Source: a virus. Taken from it: DNA of 35,475 nucleotides. The stretch spans positions 1 through 35,475 of the IMG/VR virus record IMGVR_UViG_3300008110_000405. The stretch is one strand, 5' to 3'. The translations under genes and the position numbers were made by a program. Shown here piece by piece: positions 4,436 through 35,475 of the stretch; position 1 is the first letter of the stretch; every line of letters begins with the position of its first letter. Below the pieces are notes generated by a model, which did no database searches, had not been told where the DNA came from, and saw only the letters and a program-made list of their open reading frames with translations.

Positions 4436-4698
4436 GTACAAACGAAGACCAGGTAAATAAAGGCCGAAAGGCCAAGCAGCTGCTTGAGGATGAAATCCTC
4501 AATGCAGCAATTGCGAAATTGGAAAATGACCAACTTTGGGTATTTCGATCATCGAAACCCGAAGAGTCTGTGAAACGCGAGACAGCGTGGTGCATGTTGC
4601 AGGCCATTGATGGTCTGCAGCAAGAGTTGATCAAGATCATGGACAACGGCAAGATTGCACAGAACGCCATCAGCAAATCACAGAAAAATCTAATTTAA
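4432..4698 (+). CDS. Small helical protein between portal and scaffold
   Basis: The 88-residue protein starts with GTG, and its start overlaps the portal stop (GTGA at 4432-4435). It is predicted by eye to be almost all helix, with charged heptad-like patterns, and has one Cys (AWCMLQ). I do not recognise a family. A short helical gene at this position is common in phages and could encode a head assembly helper, but no motif supports a specific role. Confidence 0.75.
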   Translation: MSTNEDQVNKGRKAKQLLEDEILNAAIAKLENDQLWVFRSSKPEESVKRETAWCMLQAIDGLQQELIKIMDNGKIAQNAISKSQKNLI

Positions 4699-4707
4699 GA
4701 AAATACT

Positions 4708-5688: not shown

Positions 5689-5695
5689 GAAAATT

Positions 5696-6658
5696 ATGGC
5701 TATCGTAAGCAATACATTTTTGACATACTCTGCAAAGGGTATCCGGGAAGATTTGAGCAATGTCATCACGAACATAGCACCAGAGGAAACTCCATATTCT
5801 TCAAACATTGGCCGTGAGAACGTGTCCAACAGTTTGTATGAATGGCAGACAGATACACTCGCCAGTGCTGCAAGTAATGCGCAGCTTGAAGGCGATGATG
5901 TTGCGTCATTTGACTCTGTGACTGCTACTGTGCGTTTGCAAAACTATGCACAGATTTCACGCAAGACAATCATCTTGTCAGCTACTGAAGAAGTGGTCAA
6001 CAAGGCAGGACGTCGCAGCGAGCTGGCCTACCAAATCGCGAAGCGTGGCGCTGAGCTAAAACGTGATCAAGAATTCGTCATGTTGAATGGCGGCATTGCT
6101 GTTGCTGGTGATTCCACCACTGCCCGTGTCACTGCCTCTTTGGGCGCGTTTGTAAAAACAAACACTGACAAGCAGACCAATGGTGCTGATCCTTCATACA
6201 CAACACTGCCAACATCTGCCCGTACAGACGGCAACGTGCGCACATTCACTGAAACCATTTTGAAAAATGTGATTCAGAAAGTGTGGACTGCTGGTGGTAC
6301 ACCTAAGATTTTGATGTGCGGTCCTGTTAACAAACAGCGCGTGTCAGGCTTCTCTGGTATCGCTTCCAGCCGTTTCAACATTGATGGCGGTGCAAAGCCT
6401 GCCACTTTGGTTGGCGCTGTTGACATCTACGTTTCAGATTTCGGCAATGTCCAAGTTATTGCCAACCGCTTCCAACGCGAGCGTGATGCATGGGTGATCG
6501 ATCCTGACTACGCCAAGATGACTGTGCTGCGTCCTTACCAGCAAGTTGAATTGGCCAAGACTGGTGACGCTGAAAAGCGTATGCTGATCGTTGAGTGGGG
6601 TCACAAAGTGTTGGCTGAAAACGCCCACGGCTTGGCCGCTGACTTGATCACTTCTTAA
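5696..6658 (+). CDS. Major capsid protein (DUF5309/SU10 family)
   Basis: The 320-residue protein has the pattern of the DUF5309/SU10 capsid family. It has the N-terminal stretch DLSNVITNIAPEETPYSSNIG, the motif YEWQTDTLA and the segment NYAQISRKTI. The long spine-helix region is AYQIAKRGAELKRDQEF, and the C-terminal part (DRDAWVIDPDYAKM-like, PYQQVELAKTGD, VEWGHKVLAEN) completes the HK97-type fold. It assembles the icosahedral head. Codons are more uniform than in neighbours, and a strong terminator follows immediately. Both fit a highly expressed gene. Confidence 0.92.
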   Translation: MAIVSNTFLTYSAKGIREDLSNVITNIAPEETPYSSNIGRENVSNSLYEWQTDTLASAASNAQLEGDDVASFDSVTATVRLQNYAQISRKTIILSATEEVVNKAGRRSELAYQIAKRGAELKRDQEFVMLNGGIAVAGDSTTARVTASLGAFVKTNTDKQTNGADPSYTTLPTSARTDGNVRTFTETILKNVIQKVWTAGGTPKILMCGPVNKQRVSGFSGIASSRFNIDGGAKPATLVGAVDIYVSDFGNVQVIANRFQRERDAWVIDPDYAKMTVLRPYQQVELAKTGDAEKRMLIVEWGHKVLAENAHGLAADLITS

Positions 6659-6671
6659 TCGGAAGCAATGG

Positions 6672-6701
6672 AAAGGGCCAGGGAAACTTGGCCCTTTTTT
6701 T
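6672..6701 (+). terminator. Rho-independent terminator after the capsid gene
   Basis: An 11-bp stem (6672-6682 with 6687-6697, one G-T pair) closes on a GAAA tetraloop at 6683-6686 and is followed by a run of T to 6701. It lies 13 bases after the capsid stop and ends just before the next start at 6705. It would stop or reduce transcription between the highly expressed head genes and the tail genes, giving more capsid transcript. Confidence 0.9.
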
Positions 6702-6704
6702 AAC

Positions 6705-7022
6705 ATGATTGAAAAAAAATTATTTGATGTAAATGCCCAGCAGGGCATCACACGCACCTGGCACTACAACACTGACAACGATGAAGTCACCATCCAAACA
6801 CAACAAGATGTGACCGATGTCATTGAGGCCAACAAAGCCATCTACAACGCTGTGGATGAGAAAGCCACCTGGAAGGGTGAATGGCACTTGGTCGCATCCA
6901 TCCCAGAAGCGCTTTATTACAAAATGAAAGCCGAAGGCAAGATTGATGACCAGGAGTACATGAAGCGCTGGTTAAACGATAGCGAAAATCAATTCTTTAG
7001 GACTCGACCTGGAAAAGTATGA
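6705..7022 (+). CDS. Conserved phage protein after capsid (105 aa)
   Basis: The protein begins MIEKKLFDVNAQQGITRTWHY and contains DEVTIQTQQDV, then a region ending in WHLVASIPEALYYKM and a C-terminal RTRPGKV. I recognise this layout from hypothetical proteins just after the capsid gene in environmental podoviruses. No function is assigned. The start is only four bases after the terminator's T run. Without a clear promoter seen here, expression probably depends on readthrough. It is joined by ATGA at 7019-7022 to the glycosyltransferase. Confidence 0.75.
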   Translation: MIEKKLFDVNAQQGITRTWHYNTDNDEVTIQTQQDVTDVIEANKAIYNAVDEKATWKGEWHLVASIPEALYYKMKAEGKIDDQEYMKRWLNDSENQFFRTRPGKV

Positions 7023-7669
7023 ACTACATTGCTGTATGCACCCCTGCCCGTGATCAAGTCCACACCAATTACACCTACTGTATGGTGAATTTAGTCGCGT
7101 ATCACACACTCAACACAACAGACGCAATCAGTCTGAAATTGATGCAAGGCACGATCATCCAAAACCAAAGGGCTGACCTTTGCCTGGATGCCATGAGAGA
7201 GGGCTGCACCCACATTCTCTTCATCGACTCTGACATGACATTTCCCCAGGATATGGTCGGCAGACTTCTGGCCCATGACAAGCCAATCGTGGCCGCCAAC
7301 TGCGCAAGACGCAGAATGCCAACTGGTCCGACAGCTCAGAACTATGACGAAAATGGCAAGCGAATCCCCATCTATACGATGCCAGAATCGACTGGACTGG
7401 AAGAGGTGGGAAGCATTGGAACAGGCATAATGCTGATCAAGCGCGAGGTGTTTGAGGGCATGAGTGAGCCATGGTTTGATATGCCGTGGCAAACAACACG
7501 GGGCTACATGGGAGAGGATGTTTTCTTTTGTAAGAAAGCTCAAGAGCTGGGTTACAAAATCTACATCGACCATGATGTCTCAAAGGAAATTGGCCACATT
7601 GGCACATTTGAGTTTCGCCATGACCACACCTGGATTGTGAAAGAGGAAATGGAAAAAGAGGCCCAATAA
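7019..7669 (+). CDS. Glycosyltransferase family 2-like protein
   Basis: The 216-residue protein has the GT-A fold pattern. THILFIDSDM supplies a DSD metal-binding motif at residues 70-72, GSIGTGIMLIKREVF supplies the acceptor-side strand, and MGEDVFFCKKAQELGYKIYI gives the ED motif typical of family-2 enzymes. A conserved His follows in IGHIG. It is the second glycosyltransferase-like gene of the virion block. Both lie among head genes, so transfer of sugar to capsid or tail proteins is a reasonable idea, but the acceptor is unknown. Confidence 0.85.
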   Translation: MNYIAVCTPARDQVHTNYTYCMVNLVAYHTLNTTDAISLKLMQGTIIQNQRADLCLDAMREGCTHILFIDSDMTFPQDMVGRLLAHDKPIVAANCARRRMPTGPTAQNYDENGKRIPIYTMPESTGLEEVGSIGTGIMLIKREVFEGMSEPWFDMPWQTTRGYMGEDVFFCKKAQELGYKIYIDHDVSKEIGHIGTFEFRHDHTWIVKEEMEKEAQ

Positions 7670-8292
7670 TGGCACTGACAACTTATGCAGAACTAAAGAC
7701 ATCAATTGGTGACTGGCTTAATCGATCTGATCTGACTGCTGTCATTCCAGACTTTATCTCACTGGCCGAAGCGCAAATCGAAAGAACACTGCGCACCAGG
7801 CAAATGTTGACCAGGACAACTTTGTCAATTGATTCTGTTTTTGAATCAACACCAAGTGACTTTCTAGAAGTCAAAGCATTTAAGTTAACCAGCACAAATC
7901 CAGACACGCCATTGTCTTTTATGACAATGGATGCCTTGGACCAGGAATCGACAAAATTCACAGGCAGTGGCAGGCCAAAATTTTTTGGTGTGGTCGGCTC
8001 TGAATTTAGATTTGTGCCAACGCCAGATGCGACATACACGGCTGAAATTGTTTACTTTGCAAATTTGAACAAATTGTCTGGAAGTGTTGCGACCAATTTT
8101 CTTTTGACATCAAGCCCTGACATTTATCTGTATGGAAGTCTACTCCAGGCTGCTCCATATCTTCAAGATGATGCGAGAATTCAGACATGGGCAACGCTGT
8201 ATGAGCGTGCTTTGAATGATTTGCAAGTGGCCGATGATCGAGGCTCTACTTCTGGTGGGGGTTTGTTGACTCGCGCAAAAACTTTTGGCTAA
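7669..8292 (+). CDS. Head-tail adaptor protein (SU10 adaptor-like)
   Basis: The 207-residue protein begins MALTTYAELKTSIGDWLNRSDL and has the helix IPDFISLAEAQIERTLRTRQM. Both are typical of the adaptor that binds below the portal in SU10-like and related podoviruses. A beta-rich middle and a C-terminal helical part (YLYGSLLQAAPYLQDD) complete the usual length of about 200. It would connect portal and tail nozzle. Its start shares one base with the upstream stop (TAATG). Confidence 0.85.
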   Translation: MALTTYAELKTSIGDWLNRSDLTAVIPDFISLAEAQIERTLRTRQMLTRTTLSIDSVFESTPSDFLEVKAFKLTSTNPDTPLSFMTMDALDQESTKFTGSGRPKFFGVVGSEFRFVPTPDATYTAEIVYFANLNKLSGSVATNFLLTSSPDIYLYGSLLQAAPYLQDDARIQTWATLYERALNDLQVADDRGSTSGGGLLTRAKTFG

Positions 8293-8302
8293 GGATTAGA
8301 AA

Positions 8303-10702
8303 ATGGCAGATACCACAACCACAAACCTATTGCTGACAAAACCAGAAGTCGGTGCATCTACCGACACCTGGGGGACAAAGATCAATACCGACCTGGACAC
8401 TATTGATGCATTGTTTGATGCTGGTCCATTATTGAAGGTCACAAAGGGTGGCACTGGTGTCGGCACAAGCACTGGCACTGGCAACAATGTGTTGTCAAAC
8501 AGTCCAACACTGGTGACACCAGCTCTTGGCACACCATCAGCTGCTGTCTTGACCAATGCAACGGGCCTGCCAATTTCGACTGGTGTAAGTGGATTGGGAG
8601 CTGGAGTCGCGACATTCCTGGCAACGCCATCATCAGCCAATCTGGCAGCTGCTGTGACTGATGAAACAGGCACGGGCAATTTGGTGTTTACCAATTCACC
8701 AACTTTGGTGACGCCAGCTCTTGGCACGCCATCGGCTGCCGTGCTGACCAATGCAACGGGTTTGCCTTTATCAACTGGTGTTACTGGTGTTCTGCCAGTG
8801 GCAAATGGTGGAACAGGATCGGCCTCTGGAGTGGATTTGGCCACTGGCGTGACGGGGACACTGGCGGTGGCCAATGGCGGCACGGGCCAGACAAGTTTTA
8901 CCAATGGCCAATTGCTGATTGGTAACAGCACTGGCAACACATTGACCAAGGCATCATTGACTGCTGGCTCTGGCGTGACTATTACGCCAGGCGCTGGATC
9001 AATTGAGATCGCATTTACTGGCCCAGGAGCTGGATCAGTGACCAGTGTTGATGTGTCTGGCGGCACAACTGGTTTGACAACTTCTGGAGGTCCAGTTACG
9101 GCATCAGGAACAATTACCCTGGCTGGGACACTTGCTGTTGCAAATGGTGGTACTGGTCAAACATCTTATACAGATGGTCAATTGTTAATTGGAAATTCGA
9201 GTGGAAATACGCTTAATAAAGCAACATTGACTGCGGGTACTGGAATATCTATTACCAATGCTGCGGGTGAAATCACAATCGCTTCAAATGTATCAGGTGG
9301 CGCATTTGGTACTGACTTGTCTTACACAGACTTTTTCTTGACCTTATCAAGCGCAATAAGTTCAAGCGCAGTTAATTTGCAAGCTGTTTCTTTGGATGGA
9401 ACTAGCGAGTTAATGATTGTTCATGGCACTACTTCTGCCCATGCTGTAGTTTTTAACACAAGCACCAACACTTTTGGAACGCCTGTTCTTGTCAGAACTA
9501 CTAGTTTAAACAGTCGTAACAGCATTGCGTTAGCTTCTGTTTCTTCAACTTCGGTTTTGGTTTGTTCTTTAGTTCCAAGTACTTCGGCACTTGAAACTGT
9601 GGTTTTAACTGTTAGCGGAAGCACTATAACTGTTGGCACTCCTGTTGCAACAACTTTGTCTGCAAACAGCAGTTTAGTCGTACCCAACACACGTCTAGTA
9701 ACTGTTGGGTCAAGCTATGTTTTGAATTACTGGAATGTAACAGGAACAACACCAAAGTTTAGAGCTATTACAGTATCAGGCTCAACACCTACTGTTGGCT
9801 CTGAGTTTGCTTACACAGGTGGTGGCTCAAGTAACAACTACCATCACTCTTATGCACACAGCAGTTCTATGCTTATGAGTTTTAGCGTAACAGGTGGTTC
9901 TACTGTTTATGCTTACCCTATTTCAGTTAGTGGCACAACATTAACTGGTGGAACTGCTGCAACAGTATCAACAACAGACACGATTATTTGCACAGGACAA
10001 CTAAGTAGTAGCCGTTATGTTTTGGCTTATTTAAACACTACTGGTCGTGGCGCAGTTGTTTCTGTTAGTGGAACTACTGCAAGCATTTCAACAGCGGCAA
10101 CAACATTAACTGTTGGTACATGGTCACCACAAATTCAAGTTTTTTCTAACAAAGCATTTATCTTGACTGGTTCATCTGGCACAGACAGAATAAATGTGTT
10201 GACTGATACAGCAGGCTCTGCCTCTCTTGGTACAGAATTACAAGTTCCCGCTAATCCAGGAAACATTGTTGGCTATTTAAGTACAGAAAAAATTCTTTGG
10301 GCTTATTCCGCTTCTGGTTCAAGTGTAAATATACAGTATGGAATTTCTTCAGGTAGTCCTGTAAGAGAAAAAACATTTCAATCTGTAACAAGTACATCTC
10401 CAATTACTGCAACTGCTTTTAGTAGCGCTTACTACACTCGCCCATTGTCTGGGCCTCCTCAAAGCGGAAGCAATGTAGAAACAATTCAAAGAACATCAGC
10501 AGGCAAAATTGCCCCTGGCTATTCTGTGTTAAATCCATTTACAGTTTCTATTGATGGAACTTACGCCACAAAACTGCAACAAGCTGCAAATCCATTTGCG
10601 TCATTTAATGATGGAATATCTGAAGCAACTGTATGGGGATTGCCTCAAACAACATCTGACACGGCTACAACTATTCAACTCAGAAAAGTGACATTAGTAT
10701 GA
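8303..10702 (+). CDS. Mosaic tail fibre protein with propeller-like C-terminal half
   Basis: The 799-residue protein opens with a virion-anchor-like segment ([21 protein letters not shown]). Repeats of the type [15 protein letters not shown] and [10 protein letters not shown] follow at residues about 50-320, a common shaft module of phage fibres. From about residue 330 the protein changes. A motif like VSGST/VSGTT recurs near residues 383, 437, 491, 542 and 587, a spacing of 45-54 residues, which suggests a beta-propeller-like receptor domain. The DNA becomes clearly richer in A and T from about 9130, with different codons. This implies the distal part was acquired from another source. It is coupled to a small partner gene by ATGA. 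Confidence 0.85.
8501..8786 (+). repeat. Imperfect direct repeats in the tail-fibre shaft
   Basis: Segments at about 8501-8586 and 8694-8786 repeat with an offset of 195 bases (65 codons) and encode [19 protein letters not shown] plus flanks. A further protein repeat, [12 protein letters not shown] onward, occurs at 8861 and 9131 (offset 270 bases). Its second copy uses mostly A/T-ending codons. Such repeats allow recombination that lengthens or swaps fibre modules. Confidence 0.85.
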
Positions 10703-10959
10703 AAAAGATCATTACTGCCTCTGGCAAATTTGGCCCTTACGAATCGGTTGAAGTTCTTGAAGATCGTTACCGAGTGGATGGCCCATCAGACTTACCTTTT
10801 ACTGTCATTGGTCAAGGTGAGATTAGTGATGTTGTGGATGGGGATTTCCCCATTCCTGAATATGTTGCGCCCATTGTTGAAGTAACACCAGAGCCAACTA
10901 AAGAAGAATTGCTTGCTCAACTGCAAGCACTTTCCGAGCAAATTCAAGCGTTACAGTAA
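10699..10959 (+). CDS. Small tail-fibre partner/chaperone-like protein
   Basis: The 86-residue acidic protein begins [20 protein letters not shown] and ends with a coiled coil ([19 protein letters not shown]). Proteins of this shape after tail-fibre genes are often fibre assembly chaperones or short fibre partners. It overlaps the fibre stop by ATGA and shares some of its A+T richness, so both may have been gained together. Role inferred from position and shape. Confidence 0.7.
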
Positions 10960-10961
10960 TC

Positions 10962-11159
10962 ATGGACGCTGATGTCGATAAGCGCCTGGCGGTGCATGAG
11001 GCAATTTGTGCAGAGCGATATAACTCCATCGCCAACACATTGAAAGATGGCGACAGACGCATGACCAAGATTGAATATCTGCTTTATGCAGCAATCTTGG
11101 CCGTCTTACTTGGACCAGGTGTGGCTGCCGAATTCGTCAAAAAGATTTTCGGGCTATGA
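10962..11159 (+). CDS. Putative holin (XhlA/class II-like, one membrane segment)
   Basis: The 65-residue protein has a charged N-terminal part (MDADVDKRLAVHEAICAER and RRMTKIEYLL). One hydrophobic segment follows at about 43-58 (AAILAVLLGPGVAAEF), and the C terminus is Lys-containing. This layout resembles XhlA-like haemolysin/holin proteins at the start of lysis cassettes. It is followed by a second tiny membrane protein in an ATGA overlap. Holin function is plausible but other membrane genes nearby compete for it. Confidence 0.6.
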   Translation: MDADVDKRLAVHEAICAERYNSIANTLKDGDRRMTKIEYLLYAAILAVLLGPGVAAEFVKKIFGL

Positions 11160-11266
11160 AAGACTGGGCCGTGGCACTGATCGCTGCGGCCCTTTTATCG
11201 GCCACCATCATCTGGGGCTTTTTTGTCATCATTGTTTCTCTGCCATGGTCTATGCTCTGGTCCTAA
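11156..11266 (+). CDS. 36-residue hydrophobic membrane microprotein
   Basis: The start overlaps the upstream stop (ATGA at 11156-11159) and the stop is TAA 11264-11266. Apart from the first four residues the peptide is almost wholly hydrophobic (about residues 5-32, ending PWSMLWS), so it should span the membrane once. It lies in the lysis region and could be a holin, antiholin or holin partner. No family is recognised. Confidence 0.65.
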   Translation: MKDWAVALIAAALLSATIIWGFFVIIVSLPWSMLWS

Positions 11267-11361
11267 TAGCAGCTGCCGAATACCGATGCACTAGGTGGAC
11301 ATGGACTGGTGACATCTACAATCGCAAGGTTGTCTGCATCAAGTGGGAGAAGAGGAAATGA
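11245..11361 (+). CDS. 38-residue microprotein with CTRWTWTGDIYNRKVVC-type motif
   Basis: The frame starts at ATG 11245, inside the preceding microprotein gene, and stops at TGA 11359-11361, overlapping the next start by ATGA. It encodes a short hydrophobic N terminus, a first Cys in a Trp-rich stretch, GDIYNRKVVC with a second Cys, and a basic end. I have seen this Trp/Cys pattern in small lysis-region proteins of phages. The lack of its own good ribosome site means it would depend on coupling. Confidence 0.5.
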   Translation: MVYALVLIAAAEYRCTRWTWTGDIYNRKVVCIKWEKRK

Positions 11362-11855
11362 TCATTGATCCAATGGACGCGCTAAATGGCCTGCAAAGTG
11401 CCATTAGCATGGTCAAAAAGGCCAGTAAGGTGGCCAATGACATAGGCGGTCTTGCCCCCATGATTGGCAAGATGTTTGATGCCAAGAGCCAGGCGACCAA
11501 GGCCATGCTCCAGGCCAAGCGGGAGAAAAAAGGCTCAAACATGGGCGCGGCTCTCCAGATCGAGATGGCCTTAGAGCAAGCCCGAGCTTTTGAGGAAGAG
11601 CTGAAAATGCTCTTCATGCAGACTGGCAAGATCGATGTCTGGAACAAGATCAAGGCGCGCCAGGCTGAGATGGACAGGGATGATGCCAAGGAGATGGCCG
11701 CCCTCAAAGCCGCAGACAAGAAGGCCAAGCAAAAAGAAGAAGAGATGCAAGAATGGGCCATGATCATTGGCGGCACGGCATTTGTGATTTTGCTGGTCTT
11801 CATCGGCATCAATGAGATGATGGAGCTATGCAAGGGGGCAAGGTGCGGTAGATGA
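11358..11855 (+). CDS. Helical membrane protein of the lysis region (165 aa)
   Basis: I chose ATG 11358, which has an AGAAGAGG site upstream and an ATGA overlap with the preceding stop. The in-frame GTG at 11343 is less likely. The protein is Lys/Ala/Met-rich and helical over about residues 15-130, a probable coiled coil. One membrane segment follows near 135-155 (AMIIGGTAFVILLVFIGI), then a short Cys-containing tail. No known family; possibly a virion or lysis-associated membrane protein. Confidence 0.7.
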   Translation: MIIDPMDALNGLQSAISMVKKASKVANDIGGLAPMIGKMFDAKSQATKAMLQAKREKKGSNMGAALQIEMALEQARAFEEELKMLFMQTGKIDVWNKIKARQAEMDRDDAKEMAALKAADKKAKQKEEEMQEWAMIIGGTAFVILLVFIGINEMMELCKGARCGR

Positions 11856-12001
11856 ACGAGTATCAGAAGCAGTTTGACAAACTGCTAAAGGTGTTCATTT
11901 ATATGTTGGTCGCGTGGTGGGTGCTTGGACTGCTCCGATTTTTCCCAGATGATATTAGCGACCGAATAGTGGCCAAAATATTGGGAATGTTTGGAATATG
12001 A
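11852..12001 (+). CDS. 49-residue single-span membrane protein
   Basis: ATG 11852 overlaps the upstream stop (ATGA) and TGA 11999-12001 overlaps the next start. The peptide begins MNEYQKQFDKLLKV, has one hydrophobic segment (FIYMLVAWWVLGLL) and a charged outer part. It is one of several small membrane proteins in a row here. A lysis or entry-block role is possible; nothing specific is visible. Confidence 0.65.
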   Translation: MNEYQKQFDKLLKVFIYMLVAWWVLGLLRFFPDDISDRIVAKILGMFGI

Positions 12002-12162
12002 AAATCACTCTCTACCAGGTCAATGCAAACATGCTGAAAGAGGCCCAGAGAGTGATCCATCAGCAGAATCTAAAGCAGATGGAGATTTTGAACAGACAAG
12101 CCCAAGAGGCCCACAAAAAGGCTCAGTGGATCAAACCTAATTCTGTGGATGTGATGGCATGA
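11998..12162 (+). CDS. 54-residue helical Gln/Lys-rich protein
   Basis: The gene uses ATG 11998, sharing ATGA with the upstream stop, and ends at TGA 12160-12162, again overlapping the next start. The peptide is soluble and helical, rich in Gln, Lys and Met, with a heptad-like pattern (VNANMLKEAQRVIHQQN). No membrane segment or known motif. Support is its clean place in the coupled chain. Confidence 0.6.
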   Translation: MKITLYQVNANMLKEAQRVIHQQNLKQMEILNRQAQEAHKKAQWIKPNSVDVMA

Positions 12163-12362
12163 AATATTTACTGCTGCTTTTACTGTTGACTGGCTGCGAA
12201 GATCGGTATCGATACAAATGCCAGAATCCTGACCATTTCCACGCACCAGAGTGTCAGAAGCCCAAGTGCTTATTTACTCAGCAGTGTCCAGAATACCTGG
12301 TCGCACCAATCCTAGAAAAGAAGGTGACAGATGTCCAGCCAGAATCAAAGACTAACAACTGA
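12159..12362 (+). CDS. Small Cys-rich lipoprotein
   Basis: The 67-residue protein starts with a short signal peptide of Leu residues ending in the lipobox LLTGC (Cys 13). It should therefore be lipidated and held in a membrane facing the periplasm. Four more Cys follow at about 21, 32, 37 and 43, with the pattern YKCQNP, APECQKPKC and QQC, likely forming disulfides. I recognise similar small lipoproteins in other podoviruses' lysis regions. It may act in lysis or in blocking superinfection; neither is shown. Confidence 0.75.
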   Translation: MKYLLLLLLLTGCEDRYRYKCQNPDHFHAPECQKPKCLFTQQCPEYLVAPILEKKVTDVQPESKTNN

Positions 12363-12876
12363 AGAATTCGAGGTAAGAATTTGGGGCTTTGTAGTTGGTG
12401 TTGTCACACTGATCCTTTGCTTCATCGTCATTGCACTTTTGTACTCAGTGACATTTGTCACTCAGCCGATCAAGAGCATGGCGCCAATTGACCAGGCATA
12501 CACAAAGATGCTAAACGACATCGTGCTGCTGATTGTGGGCGGCATTGGTGGTGTGATGACCAAACGGGCGGCAGGTGCTGCGGCCAAGGCTTTTGGAATG
12601 CAGCCACCACCACAGCCCATGATGCAGCAGCCCATGATGTACATGCCCCAGCCCATGATGGGCGGCTATGCAGCGCCAGGTTACAGCAACAATCACGGGT
12701 TTACTGCCAACACCAACGGCATCCCCGCGCAGCCCTTTGGCGCGATGCCGACCTGGACCAACCCAGAGCTTGATGAGTCCTGGACACCTGGACCACCACC
12801 AGACACGCCACCAGAGCATTTGGAAGATGACCATGAGCGTGTGCAGCTGGCTGCGGCCAGACAGGAGGCAGACTGA
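12331..12876 (+). CDS. Two-span membrane protein with Pro/Met/Gln-rich tail
   Basis: The 181-residue protein has membrane segments at about residues 18-45 and 65-82, separated by a short loop (PIKSMAPIDQAYTKML). A proline-, methionine- and glutamine-rich region (about 88-125) and an acidic C-terminal end follow. It overlaps the lipoprotein gene by 32 bases and its stop meets the spanin start (TGATG). A two-span protein just before the spanins is a fair holin candidate. The long Pro-rich tail is unusual for that. Confidence 0.65.
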   Translation: MSSQNQRLTTEEFEVRIWGFVVGVVTLILCFIVIALLYSVTFVTQPIKSMAPIDQAYTKMLNDIVLLIVGGIGGVMTKRAAGAAAKAFGMQPPPQPMMQQPMMYMPQPMMGGYAAPGYSNNHGFTANTNGIPAQPFGAMPTWTNPELDESWTPGPPPDTPPEHLEDDHERVQLAAARQEAD

Positions 12877-13376
12877 TGTTTGGCATCCCATTACCCTATA
12901 TTGCCATTGGCATCATCATCGCTTTGTTTGGGTCTTACCGAGGTGGCTATCACTTTGGGTGGGAAGACAGGGACAAGGAGATGCAAATCCAAATTGCCAA
13001 AAAGAATGAAGAGGCCAGGGCCACTGAGCAAAAGCTCAATGAGAAATTAAACGCAAACGCTGCCAAGTTACAGGAGACCACAGATGTCATCAATCAAAAA
13101 CAAAATGCTCTTGATCGCGCCATTCGTGCTGGCCGGGTGCGCATCAGCGCCCCAAGTTGTCCACAAGCCCCCACAACTGCCGCCACTGCCACCGCAGATC
13201 GCAAAGAAGCAGGAAGTCAATCTGACAGAACGGCTGACCCAGCTCCTGATGCCGAGCGAGAAACCCTCCAAGCCATTGCCGAAATAGTGGCCCAAGGGGA
13301 TAGGAACACAGCACAGCTCAATGCCTGCATTGACGCATATAACGAAGCGAGGGATTTGCTCCATGGTAAACGCTGA
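12876..13376 (+). CDS. Inner-membrane spanin (Rz-like)
   Basis: The 166-residue protein has an N-terminal membrane segment (about 5-20) followed by a long charged coiled-coil periplasmic domain (about 32-82) and a Cys (SCPQ) at about 93-96. A helical end completes the standard layout of an i-spanin. An o-spanin is nested in its +1 frame, and the endolysin gene follows. With its partner it would fuse inner and outer membranes at the end of lysis. The family assignment rests on layout and context. Confidence 0.85.
   Translation: MFGIPLPYIAIGIIIALFGSYRGGYHFGWEDRDKEMQIQIAKKNEEARATEQKLNEKLNANAAKLQETTDVINQKQNALDRAIRAGRVRISAPSCPQAPTTAATATADRKEAGSQSDRTADPAPDAERETLQAIAEIVAQGDRNTAQLNACIDAYNEARDLLHGKR
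13084..13287 (+). CDS. Outer-membrane spanin lipoprotein (Rz1-like), nested
   Basis: This 67-residue frame lies wholly inside the i-spanin gene in the +1 frame. It begins MSSIKNKMLLIAPFVLAGC, where LAGC is a lipobox giving a mature lipoprotein starting at Cys 19. A proline-rich segment (KPPQLPPLPP) follows, a hallmark of Rz1. The nested arrangement matches that of lambda Rz/Rz1. It would sit in the outer membrane and bind the i-spanin across the periplasm. Confidence 0.88.
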   Translation: MSSIKNKMLLIAPFVLAGCASAPQVVHKPPQLPPLPPQIAKKQEVNLTERLTQLLMPSEKPSKPLPK

Positions 13377-13956
13377 ACAACTAGAGAAGCTGCACATTGG
13401 TCCACAGTGGGTGGATGCACTCAATGAGACTTTCCAGCGCTTTGACATTTCAACGCCACTGAGGCAGGCTGCTTTTATCGGCCAGTGCGGCCATGAATGT
13501 GGAAACTTCAGAATCCTGGAAGAGAACTTGAACTACAAAGCCGAGGCTTTGCAGAAACTTTGGCCAAAGCGCTTTGACGCTGCCAAGGCCCAGATGTGTG
13601 CCAGGAATCCAAAGCTCATTGCCAACACTGTTTACAGCAACAGGATGGGCAACAGGGATGAGGCATCAGGTGACGGCTGGCGCTTCAAGGGCCGTGGCTG
13701 CATTCAATTGACTGGGTCTGCCAACTACCACCATGCAGGCAAAGCGCTTGGCGTGGACCTGATCATGCAGCCCGAGCTGGTGGCCACGCCCCAGTATGCT
13801 GCGCTGACTGCCGGGTGGTTTTGGGACACCCACAAGCTCAACCAGTATGCGGATGCCCAGGACTATCGGACCATGACCAAAAAAATCAATGGCGGGTTTA
13901 TTGGCCTGGATGATCGCATCAAACATATTAACCACGCGCTATCTGTCCTGACATAA
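13363..13956 (+). CDS. Endolysin, glycoside hydrolase family 19-like
   Basis: I chose ATG 13363 (start MVNAEQLEKL). The upstream ATG at 13321 would extend the protein far into the spanin gene without adding a recognisable segment. The 197-residue protein carries the GH19 lysozyme/chitinase-like motifs. AAFIGQCGHECGNF has the catalytic Glu at about 45, ENLNYKAEAL follows, then NTVYSNRMGNRD and the segment GWRFKGRGCIQLTGSANY. It would cleave the glycan strands of peptidoglycan. There is no signal peptide, so it needs a holin to cross the membrane. Confidence 0.92.
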   Translation: MVNAEQLEKLHIGPQWVDALNETFQRFDISTPLRQAAFIGQCGHECGNFRILEENLNYKAEALQKLWPKRFDAAKAQMCARNPKLIANTVYSNRMGNRDEASGDGWRFKGRGCIQLTGSANYHHAGKALGVDLIMQPELVATPQYAALTAGWFWDTHKLNQYADAQDYRTMTKKINGGFIGLDDRIKHINHALSVLT

Positions 13957-13962
13957 TTAGCC

Positions 13963-14613
13963 ATGGCCAGTCAAACACAACAGCTTGAAAACCCAACGAC
14001 ACCAAACCTTGGTTATCCGACCGAGGTTTACGATCGTAGGCATTTCAATGAAAACAATGGTTCTTTGAATATTTACTTCAAAAAACTCTCAAGCATTTTT
14101 GGGTCTTTGTTTGGTCCAAGGGGCGGTAAGTTTATGAATGCACCTTATGGTGCTTTCCAGGATTCAACAGACCAAACAGCTGCCAGCACCACGGCTGCCT
14201 ATGCGGTCACATTCAACACCACAGACTTTTCTAATGGCGTGACATTGGCCAGTGGATCGAGATTGACTGTGGCCGATGCTGGAATCTGGAACTGTCAGTT
14301 TTCAATTCAATTTAAAAACACAACAAATGACACCCAGGATGTGGATGTTTGGTTCAGAAAAAATGGCACTGATATCAGCAATTCAAACAGTAAGTTTGGA
14401 TTACCAGCGAGAAAATCATCAGGCGATCCATCTCATGTGATTGCGGCCATGAACTTTTTTGCTTCATTGAACTCGACAGACTATCTTGAGATAATGTGGC
14501 GTGTGAGCGATGTTGGTGTCTCCATTGAGCATTACGCTGCTGGAACAAGCCCCACAAGGCCAGCAGTCCCATCAGCCATTGTCACAATGAGCTTTGTGTC
14601 AAACATTACCTAA
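13963..14613 (+). CDS. Virion protein with C1q/jelly-roll-like domain
   Basis: The 216-residue protein has an N-terminal anchor region (about 1-65). A beta-rich domain (about 70-216) follows with alternating strands (TVADAGIWNCQFSIQF, DVDVWFRKNGTDI, STDYLEIMWRV). Its order and spacing resemble C1q/TNF-like jelly rolls found in phage fibre tips. It lies between the endolysin and a large tail protein, so it is probably a minor tail or head decoration protein. The fold is inferred from pattern alone. Confidence 0.65.
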   Translation: MASQTQQLENPTTPNLGYPTEVYDRRHFNENNGSLNIYFKKLSSIFGSLFGPRGGKFMNAPYGAFQDSTDQTAASTTAAYAVTFNTTDFSNGVTLASGSRLTVADAGIWNCQFSIQFKNTTNDTQDVDVWFRKNGTDISNSNSKFGLPARKSSGDPSHVIAAMNFFASLNSTDYLEIMWRVSDVGVSIEHYAAGTSPTRPAVPSAIVTMSFVSNIT

Positions 14614-14620
14614 TACTGCC

Positions 14621-16099
14621 ATGTACATACCACTCAAATTACCGCCAGGCATTTATAGAAACGGCACTGAATACCAGTCAGCAGGGCGCTGGTATGACGC
14701 AAATCTGGTGCGCTGGTATGAGAACACTTTGCGGCCCATGGGTGGCTGGCGAAAGCGCGCTGCTGGTCAAATGACTGGTCTGTGCCGTGGCTTTATCACC
14801 TGGCGCGACAACAGCGCCAATCGATGGATTGCGGCAGGCACTCAGTCCAAGCTCTATGCCATGGACGAGCTTGGAACACTCAAAGACATCACGCCAAGCG
14901 GATTCACAACTGGCGCGGCCAGTGCATTGTCAACCACTGGTTATGGATATAGCACATACGGCTCATTGGCTTATGGCACTGCCAGGCCAGACAATGGTGC
15001 AAGTGCGCCAGCTACCACCTGGTCCATGGACACATGGGGTGAGTATTTGGTGGCATGCTCCAATGCTGATGGCAAGCTGTATGAGTGGCAATTGGGTTTC
15101 ACGACACCAACACTTGCGGCTGCAATTACCAATGCACCAGTGAGCAATAAGGCTTTGCTTGTCACTTCTGAGCGTATTTTGATGGCGCTGGGCGCTGGTG
15201 GAAACCCACGCAAAGTGCAATGGTGCGACCAGGAAAACAATACCCTGTGGACACCAGCGGGTGACAACCTGGCAGGCGACTATGACTTGGCCACACCAGG
15301 CTCACTGTTGGCTGGCAAGCGCGTGAAGGGTGTAAACCTACTGTTTACTGATGTGGATGTCCACACAGCTCAGTATGTGGGCGCTCCATTTGTTTATGGC
15401 TTTGAAAAGGCTGGCTCTGGCTGCGGCCTCATTTCGGCCCAGGCTGTGGCTGCAATTGACACTGCTGCCATTTGGATGTCTAGGGCAGGCTTTTGGATAT
15501 ATGACGGCTATGTCAAGCCATTGCCAAGCGATGTGTCGGACTATGTCTTTGGGAATATCAACTTTAACCAGGCATCCAAAGTCTATGCTGTCCACAACAG
15601 TAAGTATGGCGAAATCTGGTGGTACTACCCCAGCAGTGGAAGCAATGAGAACGACTCTTATGTGACTTTCAACTACCGCGAGAATCACTGGAACATCGGC
15701 ACATTGGCCAGGACTGCTGGAACTGATGCCAGTGTTTTCACAAACCCAATGGCGGTATCGACTGACGGCTACATCTACGAGCATGAAGTTGGCTTTGCTT
15801 ATGACAGTGCCAGTGTATTTGCCGAGTCTGGACCAGTCCAATTGGGCAATGGCGACAACATCATGTCGGTTCGCCAGGTGATCCCGGATGAGCAGACATT
15901 GGGTGAGGCTGTGGTGTCATTCAAGACCCGAAATTACCCCACTGGCACACAATCCACATTTGGACCATACACGGCAGCCAATCCGACTTCTGTACGCTTT
16001 TCTGGTCGCCAGGTCAATGTCAAAGTCACTGGTGACACATTGGCTGACTGGCGAATTGGCGTGATGAGATTAGAGGCTGTGCCGTCTGGTAAGCGATGA
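14621..16099 (+). CDS. Tail protein (P22 gp10/stabilisation- or nozzle-like)
   Basis: I chose ATG 14621, after the upstream stop; the in-frame ATG at 14594 overlaps that gene. The 492-residue protein starts MYIPLKLPPGIYRNGTEYQ, then RWYDANLVRWYEN and GGWRKR. This opening is shared with phage DNA-stabilisation and nozzle-type proteins of podoviruses. The remaining protein is beta-rich with repeated short Trp/Gly/Asp segments, in keeping with a propeller-like tail nozzle. It likely closes the tail channel below the adaptor. It is coupled to the next gene by ATGA. Confidence 0.75.
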   Translation: MYIPLKLPPGIYRNGTEYQSAGRWYDANLVRWYENTLRPMGGWRKRAAGQMTGLCRGFITWRDNSANRWIAAGTQSKLYAMDELGTLKDITPSGFTTGAASALSTTGYGYSTYGSLAYGTARPDNGASAPATTWSMDTWGEYLVACSNADGKLYEWQLGFTTPTLAAAITNAPVSNKALLVTSERILMALGAGGNPRKVQWCDQENNTLWTPAGDNLAGDYDLATPGSLLAGKRVKGVNLLFTDVDVHTAQYVGAPFVYGFEKAGSGCGLISAQAVAAIDTAAIWMSRAGFWIYDGYVKPLPSDVSDYVFGNINFNQASKVYAVHNSKYGEIWWYYPSSGSNENDSYVTFNYRENHWNIGTLARTAGTDASVFTNPMAVSTDGYIYEHEVGFAYDSASVFAESGPVQLGNGDNIMSVRQVIPDEQTLGEAVVSFKTRNYPTGTQSTFGPYTAANPTSVRFSGRQVNVKVTGDTLADWRIGVMRLEAVPSGKR

Positions 16100-24455: not shown

Positions 24456-24656
24456 ATGGAATCAATCTTCACTATCAGGGACAGGGCCAAGGCCCACAAG
24501 ATCACCATGTCTGCCGTGTGCAGCAGGGCTGGCATTCAGCAGTCCCAGGTGAGCCGATGGCTGTCTGGGACTGTTGAGCCACTTTGGACATCAATCAATC
24601 AATTGAACATTGCACTCAATGCATTGATTGAAGAGAGATCACCAGTCGCTGTCTGA
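24456..24656 (+). CDS. Cro/CI-type helix-turn-helix regulator
   Basis: The 66-residue protein has a classic lambda-repressor-like helix-turn-helix: AKAHKITMSAVCSRAGIQQ, then the recognition helix SQVSRWLSG. It includes WTSINQLNIALNALI as the fourth helix. It has no C-terminal dimerisation or cleavage domain, so it resembles Cro rather than a full repressor. It is the only rightward gene between leftward neighbours, and its 3' end overlaps the leftward ssDNA-binding gene by 18 bases. It probably acts on the operator directly upstream. Confidence 0.85.
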   Translation: MESIFTIRDRAKAHKITMSAVCSRAGIQQSQVSRWLSGTVEPLWTSINQLNIALNALIEERSPVAV

Positions 24657-29176: not shown

Positions 29177-29208
29177 CCCCTGGTCCATGCGCAAACAGTG
29201 ACCAGGGG
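29177..29208. terminator. Perfect 9-bp inverted repeat, possible leftward terminator or leader hairpin
   Basis: CCCCTGGTC at 29177-29185 and GACCAGGGG at 29200-29208 form a perfect 9-bp stem with a 14-base loop. Read leftward, the hairpin is followed by TTTTCTTTTT, like a Rho-independent terminator. Read rightward, it has no T run and would instead form a hairpin 26 bases before the primase start, able to affect its translation. No leftward gene is known to end here. Confidence 0.55.
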
Positions 29209-29233: not shown

Positions 29234-31399
29234 ATGAAACACCCAAACAAAGGAATTTCAGTGGCCATCATAACTGAAACACCCCAAAACGATACATTCA
29301 GCCAGTCCCAACAAGTGGCCTGCAAGATAGGCGCTGTCGCACCCGATGCCGTCTTTTGTACCTTTGCCCTACAAGGCGGTAAAAAGATTCCATTCAAGCG
29401 AAGCGGCCAAGGCGTGGCACGGGACACCGACCCATCAGACCTTTACAGCTCTGAAGACATCTGGGCCATGGAATCATGCCCATTTGGTCAATACCTTGGC
29501 CTGGTCCAGCAGCGCCCCATCATCAGCGCATCAGGCGACTATTTGGTTTGCCTGGATGTGGATATGAAGCACGCTAGTGGCCCGACCAATGTGGCCATCC
29601 AGCGCATGGCGAAATACGTCAAGGCCAACAACATGCTGACCGAGGTGTCAGTCTCTGGCCGTGGCCGCCATGTCTTTCTGTGGGTCAAAGCGCCACCAGT
29701 CAAAGACCTGATCCTGCCCAAGTACAAACTGGGCGGTGGTCAAGAGCTTGAGGTATTCGGCCTGCCCAATAGTGCAGGCAAGTCAGTGCTACTCAGCGGC
29801 AATGCTGTGGCTGGGGAATTCCAAGAAGCTGTGGACTTGCATGATCTGCTGACCGAGTGGGGCATCATCGAGCAGCACCAGCTGCAAGAGCCAAAGCCTG
29901 CACCATCACAAGCCTTTGACTTCAGCAAAATAATGTCAAACGCAGGGCCAAGCGACTTTGACAAGGCAATTGATGCCTTGAACTACATCAACCCAGACAT
30001 TGATTACGACAACTGGATTGCCATTGGCCAGGCGCTGCACACAGAATTTGGCGAGCATGGCCGGAATGCTTGGTATTACTGGTCAAGCCTTGGCAGCAAA
30101 TACCAAGGTGAAAAGGACCTAGACAGCCACTGGAAGAGCTTTCACCAGGGCAAAGGTGTTGGTCTTGGCACGCTCTTCAAGTACGCCAAAGATGCTGGCT
30201 GGGAAGCGCCCACCAAACAGACAGAGCGAAAGTCAGCCGTTGAAGACTTTGCAGCTGTTATCAGCCAGGCCAAAGCGCCAGTCATTGACCAGGAAGCACC
30301 AGACCCATCATGGCCAGAGCTGTCGATTGACCTGACCCATCTCAAAGCCATTGACTACCTGATCGAAGGCTTCATGGCCCACAGCTTCTTCATTCTGGCT
30401 GGTCAGCCTGGAGTCGGTAAGACCACAGCAGTGCTGTCCATGTGCATGGTCATGGCGGGATTTTCTATTGATGGCTGCGAGATATACGCCAAGAACAAGC
30501 GCAAATCCATCATCGTGACTGAAGATTCTGACCAGGTAATCAGAACTCTTTTCGCATATTCAAAGCATTATCGTATTGATAATCTGAATGACTGGTTTGT
30601 GGTTATTGATGCCAGAAGGTCCAATGTCAAGGATTTATTAAGGCTTGCACATAATATTGAACGCCACACAGTTAATGGCACACGGCCATTATTGGTGCTG
30701 GACACGGCCAATGCGACCATGGATATTGACAATGAGAATGACAACTCAGAAGTTGGCAGCTTCATTGCCGCTATCAAGCAGACCATCTATGTCCAGCAAA
30801 AAGCGCCAGTCTGCATTCTGACCCACACCAACAAAACAATCTCAAGACAAGACTCAGATGCCATGGCCCGTGGTGCTTCTGCATTCACAGGCGATGCAAC
30901 GCTGACAGGCGTGCTTTTCATGGATGAGGACAACCAAAGATATCTCAAGCTCACAAAGACCCGCTACGAGCCAGCATTCAGAGAGATCAAGTTTGACAGC
31001 ATCACATTCCCAGAAGTGGTCACCACACCAGCTGGCGACATGCAAGAGATCATTTGCCGGGTATCTATTCCGGCCATGTCGTCAGAACAAGACCGAATGG
31101 CCGCCAAGCAATTGATGCAAGACAGCGCCAGAGAGCAGCGCATCCAGGACAAGTGCGATGAGGTCTGCATGCATGTCCAGTCCATCATTAACGACAAGGG
31201 CAATGTCATCATGCGAAGAGGGCCAGGTCGCCCCAACATTCCAAAAGAACTCACAAACCACTACCAACTAGATTGGACTGAGATATTCAGCAGCGTCAAA
31301 GGCAGTGATGCAGGCTATATCCGCAAACACATTGGCACGGCCATCTTCACCAGGTTCGCTCCAAATGAGCCACTGTCTGGGTGGGTGAGGTTGACATGA
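29234..31399 (+). CDS. Primase-helicase fusion (AEP prim-pol, PriCT, RecA-like helicase)
   Basis: I chose ATG 29234; the in-frame GTG at 29198 lies inside the preceding hairpin. The 721-residue protein has an archaeo-eukaryotic primase-like N-terminal part with DVD at about 108-110 (LVCLDVDMKH) and SGRGRH at about 141-146, the catalytic acid and basic motifs. A PriCT-like middle (DNWIAIGQALHTEFGEHGRN, then SHWKSFHQGKGVGLGTLFKY) links to a RecA-like helicase. That has Walker A AGQPGVGKTT at about 388-397 and Walker B LLVLDTANATMD at about 483-494. It would prime and unwind DNA at the phage origin. An iteron array starts six bases after its stop, which suits a RepA-like initiation role. Confidence 0.9.
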   Translation: MKHPNKGISVAIITETPQNDTFSQSQQVACKIGAVAPDAVFCTFALQGGKKIPFKRSGQGVARDTDPSDLYSSEDIWAMESCPFGQYLGLVQQRPIISASGDYLVCLDVDMKHASGPTNVAIQRMAKYVKANNMLTEVSVSGRGRHVFLWVKAPPVKDLILPKYKLGGGQELEVFGLPNSAGKSVLLSGNAVAGEFQEAVDLHDLLTEWGIIEQHQLQEPKPAPSQAFDFSKIMSNAGPSDFDKAIDALNYINPDIDYDNWIAIGQALHTEFGEHGRNAWYYWSSLGSKYQGEKDLDSHWKSFHQGKGVGLGTLFKYAKDAGWEAPTKQTERKSAVEDFAAVISQAKAPVIDQEAPDPSWPELSIDLTHLKAIDYLIEGFMAHSFFILAGQPGVGKTTAVLSMCMVMAGFSIDGCEIYAKNKRKSIIVTEDSDQVIRTLFAYSKHYRIDNLNDWFVVIDARRSNVKDLLRLAHNIERHTVNGTRPLLVLDTANATMDIDNENDNSEVGSFIAAIKQTIYVQQKAPVCILTHTNKTISRQDSDAMARGASAFTGDATLTGVLFMDEDNQRYLKLTKTRYEPAFREIKFDSITFPEVVTTPAGDMQEIICRVSIPAMSSEQDRMAAKQLMQDSAREQRIQDKCDEVCMHVQSIINDKGNVIMRRGPGRPNIPKELTNHYQLDWTEIFSSVKGSDAGYIRKHIGTAIFTRFAPNEPLSGWVRLT

Positions 31400-31474
31400 T
31401 TGGTCTAATGTGGAAAGGCGGAACTAATGCGGAACTAATGCGGAATTCCGTATTAGACAATGGCTGGGATTGTT

Positions 31475-31505
31475 GGATAAGTGGGGTCATTAGACCCACT
31501 TATCC
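31475..31505. repeat. Long inverted repeat in the origin-like region
   Basis: The arms GGATAAGTGGG (31475-31485) and CCCACTTATCC (31495-31505) are perfectly complementary. With one bulged G the stem extends to 13 pairs around an ATTA loop. The right arm contains most of the DnaA box TTATCCACA at 31500-31508. Such a structure could be extruded as a cruciform or bind a dimeric initiator. Confidence 0.8.
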
Positions 31506-31508
31506 ACA
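31500..31508 (+). promoter_or_regulatory. DnaA box
   Basis: TTATCCACA matches the E. coli consensus TTATNCACA at every fixed base. It lies in the right arm of the long inverted repeat and within the iteron-like array. Confidence 0.8.
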
Positions 31509-31619
31509 GACCAGTCTCGGCTTGGAAGGTACTTCAGTTTCTAATGCGGAAAGGCGGAAAAAACCTTAAGGGCTTTCCGTATTAGAAGCGAGCATTAGAT
31601 GGTCAGACAAGGAGGAAAG

Positions 31620-31639
31620 TTATGCACAGGTTATCCACA
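31620..31639 (+). promoter_or_regulatory. Tandem DnaA boxes over a start codon
   Basis: TTATGCACA at 31620-31628 and TTATCCACA at 31631-31639 both match TTATNCACA, two bases apart and in the same direction. The first contains the ATG (31622) of the next gene. DnaA bound here could both help opening of the origin and repress that gene. The chance of three perfect boxes in 140 bases is low. Confidence 0.8.
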
Positions 31640-31942
31640 GATCAGGAATTTATCGAAGATGACAGGGTTTTCTGTCAAAACTGCGCTAATGCGGAAATGG
31701 TCGAACAGCGCCAGTCCATGCCAGCGGATCAGATGGAAAAGCATCGCAAGGTCAACGCAAAACCTTTGCAGTGGATGTTTGACCAGGCAAAGATCAGGAA
31801 TGGATGGGCAACTGTCACATGGTCCGAACGCCAGTGCGGCAAAAATGGTCTGGCCGCATTCCCGGCAGATGTGAAGCACCGATGCCACATGTTCCAGGCC
31901 AAACCCTCGGCTGTAGAATCCGAGGAATGGTGGTTGACTTAA
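31622..31942 (+). CDS. Cys-rich small protein after the origin-like array
   Basis: The 106-residue protein starts at ATG 31622, six bases after a strong GGAGG site (31611-31615). It has Cys at about 18 and 21 (VFCQNCAN), then 72 (ERQCGKNG) and 88 (KHRCHMF), which may bind zinc. The middle is helical with QWMFDQAKIRNGWATVTW. It lies directly over two DnaA boxes and includes the last iteron copy, so origin DNA and coding DNA overlap. Function unknown; a DNA-binding zinc protein is a guess. Confidence 0.75.
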   Translation: MHRLSTDQEFIEDDRVFCQNCANAEMVEQRQSMPADQMEKHRKVNAKPLQWMFDQAKIRNGWATVTWSERQCGKNGLAAFPADVKHRCHMFQAKPSAVESEEWWLT

Positions 31943-32794: not shown

Positions 32795-32841
32795 GTGAAT
32801 ACCGAAGCACTCAGTCACTTTATACAATGACCATTATGTTA

Positions 32842-32943
32842 AGTGGATAAGTCGATATCCACAGAAAAAGTAATGCTCTGGTGTTACTTGCAAGGTTATC
32901 CACAGGAATCTGTGGATAGAAGTGGACAAGGTGCTGTGGACAA
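32842..32943. other. Cluster of DnaA-like boxes after the small terminase gene
   Basis: One perfect box, TTATCCACA, is at 32896-32904. One-mismatch boxes are at 32842-32850 (inverted), 32855-32863, 32911-32919 (inverted) and 32935-32943 (inverted). The cluster lies in the longest gene-free stretch of the window (32795-33123). It is followed by a GC-rich part and a pure A/T tract. The arrangement resembles a bacterial or plasmid origin with its unwinding element. Confidence 0.7.
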
Positions 32944-32977
32944 GCCTGCCGTGGCCACCAGCCGACCTGGGCGCGAG

Positions 32978-33008
32978 CCCCCCCCCGGCTGCCGTTTGGC
33001 GGGGGCGA
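32978..33008. other. GC-rich C-run segment, possible packaging-site element
   Basis: A run of nine C (32978-32986) is followed by a small inverted repeat (GCCGTTTGGC) and a G5 run, giving a GC-rich stem-loop candidate. The segment stands between the two terminase genes, where cos or pac sites are often found. It contrasts with the A/T tract that follows. No overhang can be recognised. Confidence 0.4.
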
Positions 33009-33031
33009 CTGTGGCGGTGCTAAACACCTAC

Positions 33032-33056
33032 AAAAAAAATTTTTTAAAAAAATTTT
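33032..33056. other. A8T6A7T4 tract, possible DNA unwinding element or bend
   Basis: Twenty-five bases contain only A and T in four blocks. A tract of this kind is easily melted and strongly bent. Set beside a DnaA-box cluster, it is a good unwinding-element candidate. A transcription stop for the early block, helped by the small GGTG/CACC hairpin just upstream, is an alternative. Confidence 0.65.
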
Positions 33057-33063
33057 GAGGTAG

Positions 33064-35282: not shown

Positions 35283-35471
35283 ATGAAGGCAATGTCTAAA
35301 GCGCAAAAGAAGGTCGGAAAGGTGATGCATGAGTTTGGCTCTGGCAAGCTGCATAGCGGCAAGGGTGGTCCTGTGGTCAAGAATCCCAAGCAGGCCATTG
35401 CCATTGCAATGAGTGAAGCGAAGATGCCCATGCGCGGCCAGCGCACAGCAAAGAACAAGGCGAAAAAATAA
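35283..35471 (+). CDS. DUF6496-like small basic protein (complete copy)
   Basis: AGGAGG at 35271-35276 fits ATG 35283 with a six-base gap better than ATG 35277, which directly follows it. The 62-residue protein has SKAQKKVGKVMHEFGSGKLH, then SGKGGPVVKNPKQAIAIAMSEA and a Lys/Arg-rich end. This is the DUF6496 pattern, found in bacteria and phages, with no known function. Its last 110 bases are repeated at the window start. The strong ribosome site suggests high expression. Confidence 0.88.
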   Translation: MKAMSKAQKKVGKVMHEFGSGKLHSGKGGPVVKNPKQAIAIAMSEAKMPMRGQRTAKNKAKK

Positions 35472-35475
35472 TGGC
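35362..35475. repeat. Right copy of 114-bp direct terminal repeat
   Basis: Identical to bases 1-114. It shows that the sequence closes on itself, with the complete copy of the interrupted gene at this end. The closed genome would run from the large terminase through this gene into the HiPIP-like gene without a break. Confidence 0.95.

Follow-up and report, generated by a model that had tools for sequence, protein, structure and literature searches.

The region around 31400-31640 of the freshwater phage contig IMGVR_UViG_3300008110_000405 probably is the replication origin of the phage (probability about 0.84, on sequence evidence), built like a plasmid iteron origin and served by an unusual all-in-one initiator. 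Origins of this kind are known (iteron origins, P4 alpha, RSF1010, P1), and it is the combination of parts that is new. The contig was analysed over its whole length of 35,475 bp, called the window hereafter. It is circular: its 114-bp ends are identical (1-114 and 35362-35475), as in a circular or circularly permuted genome of ~35.36 kb.

Repeats, DnaA boxes and hairpin downstream of the rep gene

The array and its flanking genes consist of the following features.

29234-31399, + strand: Rep, with PrimPol (AEP), PriCT-2, RecA/SF4-type ATPase and putative C-terminal winged-helix-like domains
31097-31396, + strand: C-terminal domain of Rep (residues 634-733), the proposed iteron reader
31405-31456: iteron block 1, with direct copies at 31405-31415, 31424-31434 and 31435-31445, a half-copy at 31415-31423 and an inverted copy at 31446-31456
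31471-31508, + strand: bulged hairpin, the 3' arm of which carries a DnaA box
31500-31508, + strand: DnaA box TTATCCACA, in the 3' arm of the hairpin
31541-31585: iteron block 2, with a direct copy at 31541-31551, a half-copy at ~31551-31559 and an inverted copy at 31575-31585
31620-31628, + strand: DnaA box TTATGCACA, including the ATG of the 106-aa ORF
31622-31942, + strand: Cys-rich ORF of 106 aa, with no family match
31631-31639, + strand: DnaA box TTATCCACA, 11 bp (one helical turn) past the preceding box
31686-31696, + strand: iteron copy within the 106-aa ORF, missing in some relatives

The repeated unit is an 11-bp element, CTAATRYGGAA. The first-pass annotation had listed seven copies, and all are exact, five in direct (31405, 31424, 31435, 31541, 31686) and two in inverted orientation (31446, 31575), those at 31424, 31435 and 31446 being set back to back. 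The copies span 292 bp (31405-31696), adjoin the initiator gene, and are unique to the array, as none was found elsewhere in the 35,475 bp at 0 or 1 mismatch; the expectation in first-order Markov sequence of the same dinucleotide make-up is 0.01 per window. Half-copies (AAGGCGGAA), absent from the earlier list, follow copies 1 and 5, and these places hold further iteron copies in relatives. A further correction concerns the 106-aa ORF, within or at the start of which the iteron copy at 31686 and the second and third DnaA boxes are located.

The three DnaA boxes (TTATNCACA at 31500, 31620 and 31631) proved exact, as described earlier. Three exact boxes within 140 bp were encountered in 0/200 random (simulated) windows. 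Of 73 loci in relatives, 70 keep all three boxes exact, and the remaining 3 keep two of them exact. Because perfect boxes are conserved, it is highly probable that host DnaA is used and binds the boxes of the array, and the earlier proposal that the phage borrows this protein gains support to that extent.

The inverted repeat had been described as 13 pairs with one bulge. Its arms (31474-31485/31495-31506) form 12 perfect pairs, and more pairs are formed beyond a one-base bulge; the folding of the DNA has a z of -5.5 relative to shuffled sequences. Across 18 sequences, 98.6% of the cells of the inner eight pairs are paired, and two pairs have changed on both sides. One such compensatory pair, in locus L057, falls within the DnaA box (TTGTCCACA), and the opposite arm carries the matching change. 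The two more distant relatives described below form equivalent hairpins from other stem sequences, each bulged and each with TTATCCACA in the 3' arm. Compensatory changes are moderate evidence for a conserved stem, the changes being few. By analogy with the ssi sites of RSF1010, the hairpin may provide a single-strand priming site; alternatively, its extrusion could hide the DnaA box.

An AT-rich unwinding element, which is expected beside the repeats of an iteron-type origin, was not found: the array has no 60-bp stretch of low stability, and the nearest ones are at 32814 and 33028, more than 1 kb away. A search of phages with the array DNA returned nothing useful.

Conservation of the array in related phages

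The Rep protein was used to search IMG/VR, and 80 loci were obtained, 73 with enough flank to read the array; an alignment-based re-search for relatives returned mostly the same contigs. An array next to the primase gene, which the first-pass annotation had proposed to look for, is present in 73/73 loci. Position, order and spacing are alike in all, near base for base. The shared order is direct repeats, inverted repeat, hairpin with DnaA box, direct/inverted pair, and two boxes 11 bp apart.

The repeats fall into three close types. Type A (CTAATRYGGAA) is that of the window and occurs in 29 loci, type B (GTAATGCGGTA) in 8 and type C (GTAAANNGGTA) in 36. Departures from the type of the locus within an array amount to a single copy in L065 and a mixed one in L020. 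In types B and C the inverted copy 4 has C rather than G as first base, the remainder being of the type. The copy located within the 106-aa ORF is less constrained: it is lost in some loci, and in L030 is of type A in a type B array. Concerted change of repeats at kept spacing is what is expected of sites for one co-evolving protein.

Two relatives are more distant. L082 (Rep 58-60% identical) keeps the array plan. In MW202879 (L083; Rep 51% identical) the repeats are different in sequence (TCGAAGATACC/TCGGAGATCC), and occur at a nearly constant offset from the positions in the window. MW202711 has a gene named repA as well; in the stretch compared, it shows neither a comparable array nor an exact DnaA box.

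GC skew and proposed mode of initiation

The detrended cumulative GC skew of the window has its global minimum at 31378, and its range is reached by 0.2% of block shuffles (p 0.002). In all 9 of the other near-complete genomes the minimum precedes the hairpin DnaA box by 108-287 bp, and it is thus at the array in 10/10 genomes counting the window. The maximum varies in place, and is not consistently opposite the minimum. Genes on both sides of the array run in one direction, so that transcription polarity does not explain the turn of the skew. The first-pass annotation had read the region as an origin, and had named the lack of arrays in relatives and of a skew change near the repeats as grounds for abandoning this reading. 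Arrays in all relatives with readable flank, and a skew minimum in each genome, support it strongly instead.

Initiation may be pictured as follows. Rep would bind the 11-bp repeats, each about one helical turn in length, through its winged-helix-like C-terminus, host DnaA would bind the three boxes, and the two proteins together would open the duplex. Once single-stranded, the conserved hairpin would be the priming site for the PrimPol domain of Rep, the RecA-type ring of which would unwind the DNA. Elongation would fall to the host replicase, because none of the phage genes scanned was recognised as coding for a DNA polymerase.

The proposed initiator and iteron reader

Rep measures 721 to 733 aa, depending on the start (ATG at 29234 or GTG at 29198). 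The ATG is probably used, and the GTG not, since in relatives stop codons interrupt the frame shortly before the ATG. Sequence matches were obtained to PriCT_2 (1e-19) and AAA_25 (1e-16). In structure comparisons based on a full-length model of low overall confidence, the N-terminus resembles the NrS-1 PrimPol 6jon (Z 11.5, rmsd 3.7, 164 aa), and the middle region resembles RecA/KaiC/T7 gp4 cores. The DxD and sxH motifs of PrimPols occur as LDVD and SGxGRH, both invariant in A1. The helicase core is thus of the RecA/KaiC/T7 gp4 type, not SF3/AAA+ as in NrS-1 and pRN1, and the primase has a PrimPol fold, not the Toprim fold of the P4 alpha family. Matches of the whole-Rep profile in PDB were pentatricopeptide designs over a short stretch, and were judged spurious.

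The C-terminal domain is modelled as alpha-beta-beta-alpha-alpha-beta, with a long first helix (pLDDT 86, pTM 0.72), and is provisionally classed as winged-helix-like. No significant match was found by Foldseek, and no relative by sequence in PDB. In a fold search the best match was VIA (Z 5.4), and winged-helix chains were among the low-Z matches.

Alignment columns of Rep which separate the repeat types are 34, and all are located within residues 634-731. In trees of 71 sequences, changes of iteron type were counted for each region, 2 being the minimum for three states. The tree of the C-terminal 100 residues requires 2 changes, that of the helicase 6, those of the primase and PriCT 20 each, that of the 106-aa body 14. 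Natural recombinants follow the same rule. In loci L029 and L032 a helicase domain resembling type A is combined with a tail and repeats of type B; in L054, L061, L065 and L080 the helicase resembles type C, and tail and repeats are again of type B. In L036 the front half is divergent, while both tail and repeats belong to type A. Primase and PriCT segments (29250-30200) reassort freely against the C-terminal domain, denoting strong intragenic recombination in this phage group.

The first-pass annotation had left the role of binder to either the primase-helicase or the 106-aa protein. The former part of the suggestion stands, and can be narrowed to the C-terminal 100 residues: since iteron type changes twice on the tail tree and more often elsewhere, the winged-helix-like tail of Rep, not the 106-aa protein, is likely to be the iteron reader. 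No column in the body of the 106-aa protein sorts with iteron type. Nine columns do, all at the N-terminus, where the ORF overlaps the DnaA boxes; a tree in which iteron-encoded codons are kept gives a misleading 5 changes, and 14 are counted when these are removed. The 106-aa protein was therefore rejected as leading candidate. In type A phages the ATG of this ORF is inside a DnaA box (31616-31640); in types B and C the start is further upstream, and the DnaA boxes are translated. Iterons serving as operators of the rep gene were also rejected, as no copies are found upstream of rep in the window.

The coding sequence of residues 634-733 stops 9 bp short of the first repeat, and part of the co-segregation of tail and repeat type is physical linkage. 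It might be argued that linkage over this short range is all there is, and that a different protein reads the repeats. Linkage alone is a poor account of the data, because no linkage is seen for the 106-aa body, which flanks the array at about the same distance on its other side (14 changes versus 2); moreover, repeats change together across the array, as expected for the sites of one reader. That another protein is the reader seems, on balance, quite improbable.

A second conserved element between the terminase genes

A noncoding element overlooked in the first-pass annotation is conserved in 55 sequences between terS and terL (32817-33060). It comprises the following.

32817-32844, + strand: XerCD/dif-like 28-mer, ACTTTATACAA-TGACCA-TTATGTTAAGT
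32842-32943: second cluster of DnaA boxes, exact and near, in mixed orientation (32842 -, 32855 +, 32896 +, 32911 -, 32935 -)
33030-33058: A/T tract following a GC-rich stretch, among the least stable stretches of the genome

According to published rules, XerCD sites have a XerD arm close to TTATGTTAAAT, a centre of 6-8 bp and conserved inner arms, and the 28-mer conforms to these rules (PMC11724359). The XerD-type arm TTATGTTAAGT is invariant in the 55 sequences, as is the inner ACAA on the XerC side, and the 6-bp centre is variable. The XerD-type arm occurs once per genome in 10/10 genomes tested. On these sequence features a functional Xer site is somewhat favoured, and the variable centre is more in keeping with a site at which the phage resolves its multimers than with one for insertion into the host dif. 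The site raises a plasmid-like stage without proving it. MW202879 lacks the 28-mer, and its corresponding interval holds a gene with a gamma-delta resolvase annotation (L083:23866-24534). The second cluster features 1-3 exact DnaA boxes in 54 loci. Searches of phages and plasmids with the DNA of the element returned nothing useful.

Other readings of the array

The second cluster might be the true origin, or one of two cooperating parts of it, as ori and crr in P4. Its DnaA boxes adjoin the least stable duplex nearby and are conserved in 55 loci, and P1 likewise has two DnaA-box arrays (PMC4980987); yet the element has no iterons, is ~1.4 kb off the GC-skew minimum, which is at the array, and is missing from MW202879, which keeps the array. 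This reading is regarded as unlikely. Much less probable is that the origin is elsewhere and the array is an operator or attenuator for the genes downstream (the 106-aa ORF, a VRR-NUC nuclease, terminase), with repeats bound by a phage regulator. An intergenic position 5' of an operon would suit an operator, and the start of the 106-aa ORF overlaps the second and third DnaA boxes. However, repeat type tracks a replication protein, whereas it does not follow the downstream protein that was tested; the DnaA boxes are perfect, and the skew minimum is at the array in 10/10 genomes though the flanking genes are co-directional. A packaging site (pac/cos) is suggested by the terminase small subunit gene, ~0.9 kb 3' of the array, but neither DnaA boxes nor a skew minimum are expected at such a site, and repeat type goes with Rep; this hypothesis is hardly tenable. 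An origin at the array is the reading adopted below.

Comparison with known replicons

Iteron plasmids (RK2 oriV, P1 oriR, F, pSC101) have in common with the array clustered repeats beside a rep gene, conserved DnaA boxes and a winged-helix-type initiator, which is predicted here (PMC4980987). They differ in that here repeats measure 11 bp, the array has no AT-rich unwinding element, and a conserved hairpin holds a DnaA box (PMC4980987). In iteron plasmids a small Rep helps to load the host DnaB; here the initiator is a PrimPol-helicase fusion. The missing AT-rich element and the type of initiator argue against counting the origin fully among those of classical iteron plasmids.

In P4 one protein binds origin repeats by a winged helix, unwinds and primes (PMC4234260). 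A single multifunctional primase-helicase is thus shared, with a C-terminal winged helix that binds the repeats in P4 and is proposed to do so here (PMC4234260). P4 alpha is a Toprim-type primase (PMC4234260), whereas the window encodes a PrimPol with a RecA/SF4-like helicase, and has conserved DnaA boxes. In RSF1010 (IncQ) binding, unwinding and priming at repeats and hairpins are carried out by separate proteins; RepC, RepA and RepB' correspond to the set of functions proposed here, repeat binder, hexameric helicase and primase, and repeats plus hairpin are also shared (PMC4234260). Unlike RSF1010, which has iterons and two ssi hairpins, one polypeptide and one hairpin are involved, and DnaA boxes are added.

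A stem-loop immediately 3' of the PrimPol-helicase gene is required for the replication of pRN1, and a similar origin 3' of the Rep gene has been proposed for the Bordetella phage BIP-1 (PMC4234260). pRN1 orf904 and BIP-1 Rep are PrimPol-helicase-winged helix proteins with the origin directly downstream of the gene, as is proposed here, and pRN1 provides a precedent for the present origin reading (PMC4234260). In pRN1 and BIP-1, by contrast, the helicase is SF3 and the stem-loop is without iterons; here a RecA-type helicase and iterons are found. The PrimPol domain fold is also shared with NrS-1 PrimPol and with PrimPol-PV1 families such as PrimQH (PMC7102993, PMC5862659). NrS-1 differs in that its recognition sequence is 8 nt long and its helicase SF3-like, and iterons are not mentioned for either NrS-1 or PrimPol-PV1 (PMC7102993, PMC5862659). 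Fusions of AEP, PriCT, RepA/DnaB-type helicase and winged helix have been catalogued, and the winged helix was suggested to recognise origins (PMC5862659). The first-pass annotation held the arrangement to be unusual for small podovirus-like phages. The description suits the combination, but P1, itself a phage with two DnaA-box arrays (PMC4980987), P4 and extrachromosomal prophages use related arrangements.

Three close repeat types, and at least two more distant ones, make a natural experiment in the co-evolution of initiator and origin, in which natural recombinants localise specificity to ~100 residues. Winged-helix recognition of iterons, as proposed for PrimPol-helicase fusions, becomes directly testable by domain swaps.

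Genome context and lifestyle

Sequence data may suggest, tentatively, that this widespread freshwater podovirus-like group is a phage-plasmid lineage, in which a DnaA-assisted iteron origin would be read by one PrimPol-helicase-winged-helix protein, multimers would be resolved at XerCD sites by host recombinases, and Rep tail and array would be exchanged as a cassette, giving new specificities. If so, plasmid-like incompatibility groups would follow from the exchange of the cassette. Uncultured freshwater phages may, like plasmids, rely on host DnaA and perhaps also on Xer, and such dependence bears on lifestyle and on superinfection incompatibility. Of plasmid maintenance genes, no ParA/ParB was recognised among the genes scanned, nor was an integrase; an Xer-like site and a Cro/CI-type HTH protein are present. 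The HTH protein (24456-24656, 66 aa, Pfam HTH_26) is a possible regulator of lysogeny or copy number. The portal protein has few matches in plasmids, all weak and on large replicons, and GTDB genomes, searched for a host, provided one MAG contig only (L082), phage-derived in appearance.

Head and tail genes (2222-16099) are related to those of Sinorhizobium phage phiM5, the record of which mentions LUZ24-like proteins. The replication module varies among phiM5-type relatives sharing these head and tail genes.
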